Part shown: piece by piece, positions 7,213 to 11,084 of the stretch
How positions within the stretch are numbered: the first letter of the stretch is position 1
Layout of the letters: the number at the start of each line of letters is the position of its first letter
NCBI RefSeq assembly: GCF_000519325.1
Contig: NZ_KI912613.1
Coordinates: forward strand, 5,401,219 to 5,465,218
Source of the DNA: Patulibacter minatonensis DSM 18081
Lineage (GTDB): Bacteria > Actinomycetota > Thermoleophilia > Solirubrobacterales > Solirubrobacteraceae
Direction of reading: 5' to 3'
Length of the DNA: 64,000 nucleotides
Notes under the pieces: model-generated
Databases searched by the model: none
Told to the model about the DNA's origin: nothing
The model's input: the letters and a program-made list of their open reading frames with translations, nothing else
Program-made: the position numbers and the translations under genes

Positions 7213-8517
7213 ATGCCCGCCCCCCGTCCGACGCGCACGACCCTCACCTCGCTCGCCGTCGCCACGGCGGCGACGCTCGCCGTCGCCGCCCCGGCGGGCG
7301 CCGCGATGCCGTCGACGTCCGGGATCGGGTCACGCGCCGGCGTGGTCGTGATCGATCTGGGGACGGGGAGGACGCTGCTCAGCCGGGACGGCAACAGCCG
7401 GCGGATCCCCGCGTCGGTCACGAAGCTCTTCACCGTCGGCACGGCGCTCGAGCTCCTCGGCCCCGACTGGACGCCCAGGACGCGGGTGGTCGCCACCGGT
7501 CAGGCCGACGGGCGCACCTGGGACGGCGACCTCCATCTCGTCGGCGGCGGCGACCCGTCGCTGTCGACCGCGGCGCTGCGCGCCCTGGCCGCCCAGACGG
7601 TGCAGGCCCTGGGGGTCGACAAGCTCGGCGGGCGCCTGCGGGTCGACGCCACGACCTTCGACGACTGGCAGGGCGGCGCACGGACGGGGAAGGCCGCCGA
7701 CGGCGACATGGGCGGACGGATCGGGGCGATCAGCGTCGACCGCGGGGCACGCACGACGCTGCCGGCGAGTCGCGCCGGCAGCCTCTTCCGCACCGCCCTG
7801 CGGACCGCCGGCCTGACCGTCTCGGGCTCCGTCGTCCAGGACCGCACCGCGGCGCCGGCATCCGCCACGCCGATCGCGACGCACGAGGGCCCGACGCTCG
7901 CGCAGCTCGCCGCCAGCACCCTCGGCCCCTCGGACAACTACAACGCCGAGACGCTCCTGAAGGACCTCGCGTCGCGCGACGGCATCGAGGCCGCGTGCCG
8001 GGTCGCGGCGTCCCTGCCGGCGATCACGCCGCCGGAGACGCTCGTCCCCGAGCCCCCCGTGGCCGCCGAGTGCCACGCGAAGGCGATCGCCGCGCCGTCG
8101 GCGACGACCCGCTCCGGGAGCCTCGTCCTGCGCACCACCCTCCGGGGCGTCCTCGGCTCGACGCCGCACATCGTCGACGGGTCCGGCCTCACGCGCCAGA
8201 ACCGGGTCTCCCCCGCGCTCGTCGCGCGCCTGCTGCAGCGCCTGGACGCGGATCCGACGATCTCGCCGGTGCTCCGGGCCTCGCTCCCCCAGGCCGGGCG
8301 CTCGGGCACGCTCGCGGGCCGCATGCGCGGCACCGCCGCGGTCGGCCGCTGCGCCGCGAAGACCGGCACGATCAACGGCGTCTCCGGCCTCGCCGGGTTC
8401 TGCACCACCAAGCGCGGGCGCGAGGTCGCGTTCGCGATCCTCCAGAACGGCGGGAACGTCTCCTCCGCCCGCGCCTTCCAGGACCGCTTCGTCGCGCGCC
8501 TGGCGCAGTCGGGCTGA
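7213..8517 (+). CDS. dacB: D-alanyl-D-alanine carboxypeptidase/endopeptidase (PBP4 family)
   Basis: 434 residues with an N-terminal signal peptide (ALA-rich core at ~10-30, likely cut after AGAA). It acts outside the membrane, trimming or cutting peptidoglycan cross-links. All three penicillin-binding motifs are present: SVTK with the nucleophile S68, SDN at 240-242 and KTG at 383-385. The order and spacing match family S13, including the large insertion between the first two motifs. It ends in an intergenic region where the facing strand encodes a structured RNA and its terminator. Confidence 0.92.
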   Translation: MPAPRPTRTTLTSLAVATAATLAVAAPAGAAMPSTSGIGSRAGVVVIDLGTGRTLLSRDGNSRRIPASVTKLFTVGTALELLGPDWTPRTRVVATGQADGRTWDGDLHLVGGGDPSLSTAALRALAAQTVQALGVDKLGGRLRVDATTFDDWQGGARTGKAADGDMGGRIGAISVDRGARTTLPASRAGSLFRTALRTAGLTVSGSVVQDRTAAPASATPIATHEGPTLAQLAASTLGPSDNYNAETLLKDLASRDGIEAACRVAASLPAITPPETLVPEPPVAAECHAKAIAAPSATTRSGSLVLRTTLRGVLGSTPHIVDGSGLTRQNRVSPALVARLLQRLDADPTISPVLRASLPQAGRSGTLAGRMRGTAAVGRCAAKTGTINGVSGLAGFCTTKRGREVAFAILQNGGNVSSARAFQDRFVARLAQSG

Positions 8518-8543: not shown

Positions 8544-8580
8544 CCGAGAACGACGACGGGCGAGCCTTGCGACTCGCCCG
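8544..8580 (-). terminator. Intrinsic terminator of the minus-strand small RNA
   Basis: Perfect 8-bp stem (8580-8573 with 8564-8557) and an 8-nt loop, followed on the minus strand by TCGTCGTTCTCGG instead of a U-tract. The same tail follows hairpins at the ends of rplQ, rpsG and rpoC. The hairpin could also act on the converging carboxypeptidase transcript. Confidence 0.6.
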
Positions 8581-8740
8581 CCACCATCGACTACACCACC
8601 CCTACTTACTTAAACATCCCAGGACCTCGTGTCGAGCCTGGGCAGACTGACACTCGTAGCCCCTCAGGCAGTCCGCCGCAAGCGGCGCGTTACCGAGGTG
8701 GGTACCGAAGTACCCCAGCCACGTAGGCGGTGTGACGACC
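8550..8740 (-). ncRNA. Candidate structured small RNA (~190 nt), family unknown
   Basis: An ORF-less, AT-richer stretch between ligA and the facing carboxypeptidase. Read on the minus strand it folds into a closed multibranch: a long-range stem pairs 8735-8723 with 8605-8593. Inside are a hairpin with a C(UUCG)G tetraloop (8715-8710 with 8705-8700), one with a G(CUUG)C tetraloop (8687-8683 with 8678-8674), and a two-part hairpin (8642-8633 with 8629-8618, GU bulge). The stable tetraloops occur only in the minus-strand reading. It has its own extended -10 (8754-8746) and ends at a terminator. I see no tmRNA, SRP, RNase P or 6C signature; 6S RNA is not excluded. Confidence 0.55.
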
Positions 8741-8745
8741 TCACC

Positions 8746-8754
8746 ACCGTAGCA
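8746..8754 (-). promoter_or_regulatory. Extended -10 promoter of the small RNA
   Basis: TGC followed by TACGGT (8754-8746), directly downstream of the ligA hairpin. The predicted start near 8740 lies just before the long-range stem. No -35 is visible. The TGCTANNNT form is shared with the rpsL, fusA, rpoB and rpmJ promoters. Confidence 0.45.
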
Positions 8755-8828: not shown

Positions 8829-11084
8829 TCAGTCGGCGGGCGACGACGCCGAGCCGCCGTCCGCGTCGTCGCCGGTGCCCGCCTCGTCCCCGTCCGACCC
8901 GGCGGGCTCGCCGTCCTCGTCCTCGGCGGGGGCGATCACCGACGGCCCCTCCGCCAGCAGGCGCTTGAGCCCCTCCTCGTCGAGCACCGGCACCTTCAGG
9001 CGCTCGGCCTTCTCGAGCTTCGAGCCCGCGGCCTCGCCGGCCACCAGGGCGCTCGTCTTCTTCGACACCGACGTCGTGACCCGGGCACCGACGGCGAGGA
9101 GCCGCTGGGTGGCGTCCTCGCGGGTCAGCGACGGCAGCGTGCCGGTGATGACGACCGTCAGTCCCTCGAGCAGCGTGGCGTTCTCGGCCCCGCCCTCGGA
9201 CTCCGGCACCTCGAGGTTCAGGCCGGCCTCCTTCAGCCGCGCGAAGACCGTCGCGACCGCCGGGTCCGCCAGGCGCTCGGCGATGATCCGCGCCATCTTC
9301 TCCCCGACGCCCGGGGTGTCGGCCAGCTGCTCGGCCGTCGCCCCCAGCAGCGCGTCGATGGTCCGGAAGCGGGCGGCGAGGTTGCGGCCCGTGATCTCGC
9401 CGACCTCCTCGATCCCGACGCCGAAGAGCACCCGCGCGAACGTGCGCTCCTTCGACGCCTCGATCGCGGCGATCGTGCGGTTCGCGGAGATCTCGCCGTA
9501 GCCCTCGAGCTCGAGCAGCTGCTCGGCGGTCAGCTCGTAGAGGTCCGCGGCGTTCGTGACGAGGCCCTTCTCGAGCAGCTGCCCGACCTGCTTCTCGCCG
9601 AGGCCCTCGATGTCCATCGCCTGCCGCCCGACGTAGTGGCGCAGGAGCTGCCACTGCTGCCCGGGGCAACCCCCGCGGTTCGGGCAGCGCGTGAAGACGG
9701 AGTCCTCCGGCTTCTCGGTCGGCGTGCCGCAGCGCGGGCACGTCGCGGGCGGCACCGGCTTCTCGCCGCGGTCCTCGCGCTCGGCCTGGTGCGGGGCCGG
9801 CGAGACGACCTGCGGGATCACGTCGCCCGCGCGGAGAACGATGACCTCGTCGCCGGGGCGGACGTCCTTGCGCTCGAGGTCCTCCTCGTTGTGGAGGGTC
9901 GCCTGCGAGACGGTGACGCCGGAGACGTTGACGGGCTCGAGCACTGCGTACGGGTGCAGGTCGCCGAACTTGCCGACGCTCCAGATCACGTCCTTCAGCA
10001 GCGTCGTCGCCGTGCGCGGCGGGAACTTCCACGCGATCGCCCACCGCGGGTCGCGCCCGACGGAGCCGAGGCGTCGCTGGAGCTCGAAGTCGTCGACCTT
10101 CAGCACGACGCCGTCGATCTCGAACGCGAGGCGGTCGCGCCGCTCGCCCCAGCCGAGGCAGGTCTTGACGGCGTCGTCGACCGTCGTGGCGACCGAGACG
10201 TCCTCGTTGACCGGGAACCCGCGGTCCTTGAGCCACTGCAGCGTCGCGCGGTGGCCGTCGACGCCCAGGACCTCGCCCACGCTGGCCGCGGTCCCGTCGG
10301 CGCCGTCGCGACCCTCGGAGGCCTCCTCGGCGGCGTCGCCGGCGGTCGCGGCGATCACCCCGACGCCGTAGGCCCAGAACGACAGCGGCCGCTCGCGAGC
10401 GGCCTTCGGGTCGAGCTGACGGATGGCGCCCGCGGCGGAGTTGCGCGGATTCATGAACGTCGAGAGGCCGGCGGCGGCGCGCTTCTCGTTGACCCGCTTG
10501 AAGTCCTCGAGCGCGATGTAGATCTCGCCGCGGACCTCGAGGACCGCGGGGGCGTCCTTCACGTGGAGCGGCACGTCGGGGATGGTCCGGACGTTGTGGG
10601 TGACGTCCTCGCCGATCTCGCCGTCGCCGCGGGTCGCGGCGCGGACGAGGAGCCCGTCCTCGTAGCGCAGGCTCATCGCGAGCCCGTCGACCTTCGGCTC
10701 GATGACGTACCGGAACGACGCGTCGGTGATGCCCTCGCGCGCCAGGTGGCTCGTCATCCGGTCGACCCAGCCCTGGAGCTCCTCGGCGCTCCGTGCGTTG
10801 GCCAGCGAGAGCATCGGCTGCTCGTGCTTGACCTTGACGAGCTTCTCCATCGGGGCGCCGCCGACGCGCTGCGTGGGCGAGTCCGGAAGGGCGAGCTCGG
10901 GGTGGTCGCGCTCGAGGCCCTCGAGCTCGGTGAAGAGCGCGTCGTAGTCGTCGTCGCCGATCTCCGGGTCGTCCTGCTCGTAGTAGCGGCGGCGGTGGTG
11001 CTCGACGATCTCGCGCAGCTCGGCGGCCCGCGCGGCGGGGTCGTCGGCCTTGGCGGTGGCGGTCTTGGCGGACTTCCGGGGCAC
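8829..11084 (-). CDS. ligA: NAD+-dependent DNA ligase LigA
   Basis: 751 residues. It seals nicks during replication and repair using NAD+. Domains run in the usual order: Ia (residues ~20-75, RRRYYEQDDPEIGDDDYD), adenylation domain with nucleophile K131 in EPKVDGLAMS, OB fold, a four-Cys zinc finger near 446-470 (CPRCGTP then CPNRGGCPGQ), helix-hairpin-helix repeats (GVGIEEVGEITG), and a BRCT domain at ~645-720. An acidic tail of ~30 residues follows. The GTG at 11084 is chosen because a TATCCT box ends 6 bp upstream, implying a leaderless mRNA; frame continues upstream only into intergenic and surE sequence. Confidence 0.93.
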   Translation of the reverse strand: MPRKSAKTATAKADDPAARAAELREIVEHHRRRYYEQDDPEIGDDDYDALFTELEGLERDHPELALPDSPTQRVGGAPMEKLVKVKHEQPMLSLANARSAEELQGWVDRMTSHLAREGITDASFRYVIEPKVDGLAMSLRYEDGLLVRAATRGDGEIGEDVTHNVRTIPDVPLHVKDAPAVLEVRGEIYIALEDFKRVNEKRAAAGLSTFMNPRNSAAGAIRQLDPKAARERPLSFWAYGVGVIAATAGDAAEEASEGRDGADGTAASVGEVLGVDGHRATLQWLKDRGFPVNEDVSVATTVDDAVKTCLGWGERRDRLAFEIDGVVLKVDDFELQRRLGSVGRDPRWAIAWKFPPRTATTLLKDVIWSVGKFGDLHPYAVLEPVNVSGVTVSQATLHNEEDLERKDVRPGDEVIVLRAGDVIPQVVSPAPHQAEREDRGEKPVPPATCPRCGTPTEKPEDSVFTRCPNRGGCPGQQWQLLRHYVGRQAMDIEGLGEKQVGQLLEKGLVTNAADLYELTAEQLLELEGYGEISANRTIAAIEASKERTFARVLFGVGIEEVGEITGRNLAARFRTIDALLGATAEQLADTPGVGEKMARIIAERLADPAVATVFARLKEAGLNLEVPESEGGAENATLLEGLTVVITGTLPSLTREDATQRLLAVGARVTTSVSKKTSALVAGEAAGSKLEKAERLKVPVLDEEGLKRLLAEGPSVIAPAEDEDGEPAGSDGDEAGTGDDADGGSASSPAD

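Follow-up and report, generated by a model that had tools for sequence, protein, structure and literature searches.

Actinobacteria use lineage-specific, RNA polymerase-binding RNAs in place of 6S RNA, namely Ms1 (PMC9130861) and CoRP (PMC11077062). Ms1 is flanked by genes for a HAD hydrolase, an oxidoreductase and other proteins (PMC9130861). Here we describe an RNA locus in a 64,000-nucleotide (nt) stretch of the genome of Patulibacter minatonensis DSM 18081 (contig NZ_KI912613.1, positions 5,401,219 to 5,465,218; hereafter the window), where an earlier note, made from the sequence alone, had proposed an undescribed structured small RNA on the minus strand between ligA and dacB. Genes of the type that flanks Ms1 are found neither at this locus nor at the loci of the other sampled genera, which have other neighbours. 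Comparison with relatives lends good support to the reading that this locus is a stand-alone gene whose product is a structured non-coding RNA of ~190 nt that acts in trans and that is represented by a core of ~105 nt in compact relatives. The earlier picture of an apparently undescribed structured RNA therefore stands, but it lacked the pseudoknot, the compact form and the spread of this RNA across its clade.

The fold and its pseudoknot

The conserved core, together with a -10 box and a terminator hairpin, points to a minus-strand transcript of ~190 nt with a 5' end at ~8740 and a 3' end at ~8550 (8548..8740); the covariance-model match within it spans 8740-8586. The minus strand from 8740 to 8550 folds with an energy of -97.8 kcal/mol (z -3.82), which none of 200 dinucleotide shuffles matched, and the plus strand folds weakly (z -1.61). 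As had been noted, this region is AT-richer than its surroundings, with a G+C content (GC) of 0.644 at 8550-8740; the flanks have 0.77 and 0.743, and the window as a whole has 0.716. An equally low GC occurs in 5.7% of 191-nt windows. No open reading frame (ORF) is common to the homologs, in agreement with the claim that the stretch has no plausible ORF, and a small protein was rejected as the product since the longest ORFs vary in length and position among homologs.

Covariation in relatives, which had been named as a check on the proposal, is strong. RNAalifold predicted 45 pairs from a MAFFT alignment of nine sequences, 19 of them with compensatory changes. When 71 sequences were aligned to the covariance model, 38 of 45 pairs changed on both sides, versus 10-16 with slid partners; 93.8% of cells were paired across the consensus, and the covariation score was 0.379 versus 0.151 for shuffled alignments and 0.024-0.065 for slid partners. 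As the 71-sequence alignment is fitted to the structure, these controls and the independent nine-sequence result have to be weighed jointly. A MAFFT alignment of the joined core misplaced the closing stem between long and compact forms and was left out of the counting. Together with the shuffle test and the existence of homologs, these data confirm that the minus strand encodes a structured RNA and support a fold made up of a closing stem (P1), an arm (P2) with or without a three-way junction, and an H-type pseudoknot.

The 5' strand of P1 (8726..8738, pairing through 8738-8736 and 8732-8726) meets its 3' strand at 8587..8600 (8600-8594 and 8589-8587). Each of the seven pairs in the main helix of P1 shows two-sided changes at some point among the 71 sequences, and 100% of its cells are paired. 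P2 (8717..8723 with 8655..8661) has compensatory changes in 7/7 pairs and 98.8% of cells paired. On top of P2, the junction is formed by the P2a hairpin GGGUAC-UUCG-GUACCC (8700..8715; compensatory changes in 6/6 pairs) and by P2b (8662..8698; 8698-8693 with 8667-8662; 5/6 pairs), which bears the P2c hairpin with its CUUG loop (8687-8674; 5/6 pairs). The closing stem and the UUCG and CUUG hairpins all lie where the earlier note had placed them. Between the pseudoknot and the 3' strand of P1 lies an A-rich linker, AUGUUUAAGUAAGUAGG (8601..8617), which is unpaired in the consensus and varies by genus, being GACGUAGUAGUUCAG or similar in most other genera and GGCUCGUAUGAAGUCAG in compact forms.

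The region 8653-8618 is better read, at the level of the family, as an H-type pseudoknot in which a first stem, PK1 (GUGUC 8653-8649 with GACAC 8633-8629), crosses a second, PK2 (CCCAGG 8642-8637 with CCUGGG 8623-8618). A two-part hairpin with arms at 8642-8633 and 8629-8618 had been proposed instead, and this nested hairpin, CCCAGG-CUCG-ACA-CGAG-GU-CCUGGG, is indeed the minimum-energy fold of the window sequence. As a family structure, however, it fails: its inner arm CUCG/CGAG forms 4 bp in just 7 of 74 sequences, and its inner pairs (helices 8-9) form in ~40% of cells among the 71 sequences, whereas the pseudoknot is kept family-wide. PK1 of at least 5 bp can form in 74 of 82 sequences (mean 17, maximum 30 for shuffles) and occurs in relatives as GUGUC/GACAC, GUGUU/AACAC and GUGUG/CACAC. 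PK2 is paired in 98.5% of cells, and its A-U pair is replaced by C-G (CCCCGG/CCGGGG) in six sequences from two genera. On a MAFFT alignment, PK1 and PK2 together held 15 doubly changed cells versus 2.2 for shuffles. The number of PK1 and PK2 pairs with double changes was two, no more than in shuffles, because both stems are nearly invariant.

The sequence CUCGACACGAG (8642-8618) is invariant in all Patulibacter sequences, and in this genus the nested hairpin and PK1 are both possible and mutually exclusive. A genus-specific switch between the two at 8642-8618 is possible. One relative (L049:2966-3184, genome G142) carries an insertion of ~55 nt between the 3' strands of PK1 and PK2.

Most relatives have a long form of 150-175 nt with the three-way junction (P2a, P2b and P2c). 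In a compact form of ~105 nt (L092-L102, L106, L107, L110, L111), a short hairpin takes the place of the junction, so that P2a, P2b and P2c are all missing, while P1, P2, the pseudoknot and the linker are retained, as are the -10 box and terminator in all but a few cases; the pseudoknot is less regular in four of these sequences (L097, L101, L107 and L111). Since the compact forms drop the junction and retain the rest, the core of this RNA is likely to consist of the pseudoknot and the two stems that support it, and it is the compact form that reveals this. One genome (G144) has two compact copies (L093 and L094) on separate contigs; its assembly contamination is 7%.

A free-standing gene in one family

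The -10 box and the terminator hairpin of the original proposal are conserved in relatives, the tail of the latter being weak, and are invisible to generic scans: promoter and terminator consensus searches found nothing at the locus in this GC-rich genome. Comparison with relatives places the -10 box TACGGT, preceded by TGC, at 8746..8751 on the minus strand. Of 86 copies, 82 have a TANNNT motif that lies 9-12 nt before the core, and 84 have one within -16 to -9, versus 3.5% for shuffles; no conserved -35 box is present across the homologs. At the other end, a terminator hairpin with a GCAA loop (8552..8585, minus strand) is indicated by folding of the window sequence and by the homologs, 82 of 84 of which have a GC-rich hairpin 3' of the core, followed by a T tail with a mean of 2.7 T in 12 nt. 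We infer that the RNA gene has its own promoter and its own terminator.

In the window, this gene occupies a 311-bp intergenic gap between the stop of dacB at 8517 (plus strand; 7213-8517, Peptidase_S13) and that of ligA at 8829 (minus strand). The RNA is downstream of ligA on the same strand at all eight Patulibacter loci, six of which are also flanked by dacB. In other genera the neighbours are lepA-like and murJ genes (lepA-like being our own reading of an EF-Tu-type GTPase) or genes for YceI, an aldo-keto reductase, a sigma-70 factor or Bax1-I. At 50 of 82 loci the gene downstream of the RNA runs on the opposite strand, and at 40 of 84 the one upstream does so. A riboswitch or leader was rejected on this synteny, as the RNA has no constant place before a same-strand gene; changing neighbours and a mostly opposite-strand downstream gene argue instead for a trans-acting RNA, as do the -10 box and hairpin of its own and the lack of a common ORF. 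A free-standing unit, compensatory change and independence of synteny, as anticipated for such an RNA, were all found. In one genus (g9), the downstream gene (L032:400-1458) codes for a member of the sigma-70 family that has regions 1.2 to 4.

Relatives of this RNA are confined to one family. When 61 genomes were searched at the DNA level, the locus turned up in 8/8 Patulibacter genomes and in one other genus. Among 232 genomes of the order, a first covariance model, built on nine sequences, had matches in 86, ~75 of them strong and all within a single family. A refined model, applied to the class (399 genomes) and the phylum (396 genomes), gave credible matches in the Solirubrobacteraceae only. 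Weak matches elsewhere in the phylum were rejected, two (L108 and L109) for lack of the pseudoknot sequences and one (L113) as a chance match. At least 75 Solirubrobacteraceae genomes carry relatives, nearly always as one copy per genome; they include Patulibacter, Conexibacter, Paraconexibacter, Svornostia and many metagenome-assembled genomes (MAGs). A search for the exact pattern GAGTGT-CCAGG-GTCCTGGG, its gaps being of variable length, gave one match in each of 59 of the 399 class genomes, always in the Solirubrobacteraceae, and the reversed control pattern does not occur in these 399. A stricter pattern, run on 84,980 species genomes, returned 56 records, all from this clade: the same four genera, MAGs labelled Solirubrobacterales, Solirubrobacteraceae or unspecified actinomycetes, and a MAG labelled Bifidobacterium breve (L119, CAMCUD010000019.1), which bears the RNA and whose label looks wrong. 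Named carriers include Patulibacter medicamentivorans, P. americanus, Conexibacter arvalis, Svornostia abyssi and Paraconexibacter antarcticus. A model at the level of the pseudoknot gave no match in 24 genomes outside the family, in a search without a positive control.

The family is apparently undescribed, in the sense that it lies outside Rfam 15 and was not found in searchable papers. Rfam 15 gave no match at gathering level anywhere in the 64-kb window; a permissive search of the locus (E up to 10) gave just one chance microRNA match, outside the RNA, and 20 homologous loci gave weak sub-cut-off matches only, none on the RNA. A known Rfam family was rejected on these searches, and the earlier view that no described family is involved is supported. 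The same note had seen nothing diagnostic of transfer-messenger RNA (tmRNA), signal recognition particle (SRP) RNA or RNase P RNA, and this agrees with our data: neither ARAGORN nor Rfam matched a tmRNA, the window has no tRNA genes, and RNase P and SRP RNA, which have no match in the window, were rejected as identities since their genes sit elsewhere in the genome (G000; 3405533-3405863 and 2884881-2884977). Literature searches returned no published RNA from this clade, and the main text of PMC11109978 does not name the Solirubrobacterales. Two AsrC matches in homologous loci (L030:1033-1096 and L034:1822-1885) are weak and far below cut-off; the second lies within a lepA-like gene and so probably reflects similarity of coding sequence.

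Possible functions of the RNA

We suggest that the folded RNA may dock on a protein through the pseudoknot with its near-invariant stem sequences. Docking of this kind, rather than antisense pairing, is the mode that we somewhat favour, since what stays invariant is a folded pseudoknot and not an exposed seed, and by analogy with described RNAs. The first candidate partner would be RNA polymerase, as for 6S, Ms1 and CoRP RNA; 6S binds the sigma70 holoenzyme and templates pRNA, and Ms1 binds the core enzyme. RNA polymerase leads the candidates, tentatively, since lineage-specific RNAs stand in for 6S in this phylum. The RNA would then define a class with a pseudoknot core that binds RNA polymerase, or a comparably general machine, and that evolved independently in the Solirubrobacterales as a counterpart of 6S, Ms1 and CoRP; we would put the probability of this reading at roughly 20%.

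Several observations weigh against such a role. No sequence feature points to RNA polymerase, and 6S and Ms1 are rods with a central bubble, a shape that this fold does not have. The pseudoknot-level model found no match in 14 family members that are at least 90% complete, in a search without a positive control, and the RNA is probably not universal even within its family, unlike a core housekeeping RNA. The near-complete relatives without a match suggest that it is probably dispensable, although some diverged copies may have escaped the search. If binding to RNA polymerase were true, a 6S-like function would have arisen independently once more. In either case, a deep, poorly studied soil lineage without detectable 6S gains a well-supported RNA family whose pseudoknot is conserved, and the named carrier species make its expression, structure and partner directly testable.

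It is also possible, if doubtful, that this is a base-pairing small RNA (sRNA), in which the A-rich linker or a pseudoknot loop pairs with mRNAs and alters their translation while the fold serves as a stabilising scaffold. The linker is unpaired, and like many antisense sRNAs the RNA is single-copy, intergenic, clade-restricted and patchy, with an inferred promoter and terminator. However, sequence conservation is highest in the stems of the pseudoknot rather than in an exposed seed, and the linker itself differs between genera. Most antisense sRNAs show less covariation than is seen here throughout the fold.

A highly diverged true homolog of 6S or Ms1 is improbable. The length is close to that of 6S, no 6S was found above cut-off in six Solirubrobacteraceae genomes, so that the niche may be open, and Ms1 is known to diverge past sequence similarity (PMC9130861). 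Against this, the reported neighbours of Ms1 (PMC9130861) do not flank the locus in the window, and RF00013 matched neither the window nor, at E up to 10, genome G000. As the earlier note had held for rod-like 6S, the RNA is distinct: covariation backs a three-way junction and a pseudoknot, not a rod with a central bubble.

Two further explanations are very improbable. A small self-cleaving or otherwise catalytic RNA would fit the compact H-type pseudoknot with near-invariant residues, which is typical of ribozymes, but no Rfam ribozyme matched, and most small ribozymes are scattered or form part of other transcripts, unlike this single-copy, intergenic RNA with its inferred promoter and terminator. 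A cis-acting element of a neighbouring gene (a riboswitch, leader or element of a 3' untranslated region) would account for the constant same-strand position 3' of ligA in Patulibacter but not for the different neighbours of other genera, the frequent opposite-strand genes on either side, or the -10 box immediately 5' and the hairpin immediately 3' of the RNA.

Comparison with described RNAs

The orphan structured RNA classes found by comparative genomics (PMC2864571, PMC11109978) resemble the Patulibacter RNA in being backed by covariation, limited to a lineage and stand-alone; many of them are collected in Rfam 15, yet none matches it. 6S RNA (RF00013) is likewise intergenic, single-copy and of similar length but is a rod with a central bubble, whereas the RNA described here is a multibranch with a pseudoknot and has no Rfam match. 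CoRP RNA of Corynebacterium (PMC11077062) is also restricted to a lineage of actinobacteria, without homologs beyond its clade; it differs in being 516 nt long, located between tRNA genes and cleaved in two, as opposed to ~190 nt in a tRNA-free window. Ms1 RNA of Mycobacterium and Streptomyces (PMC4191392, PMC9130861) shares with the Patulibacter RNA the character of a free-standing, structured, lineage-conserved actinobacterial RNA in genomes with no detectable 6S. However, Ms1 is ~230-300 nt long and 6S-like, with a central bubble and characteristic flanking genes, whereas the RNA of Patulibacter combines a length of ~190 nt with a junction, a pseudoknot and changing neighbours.
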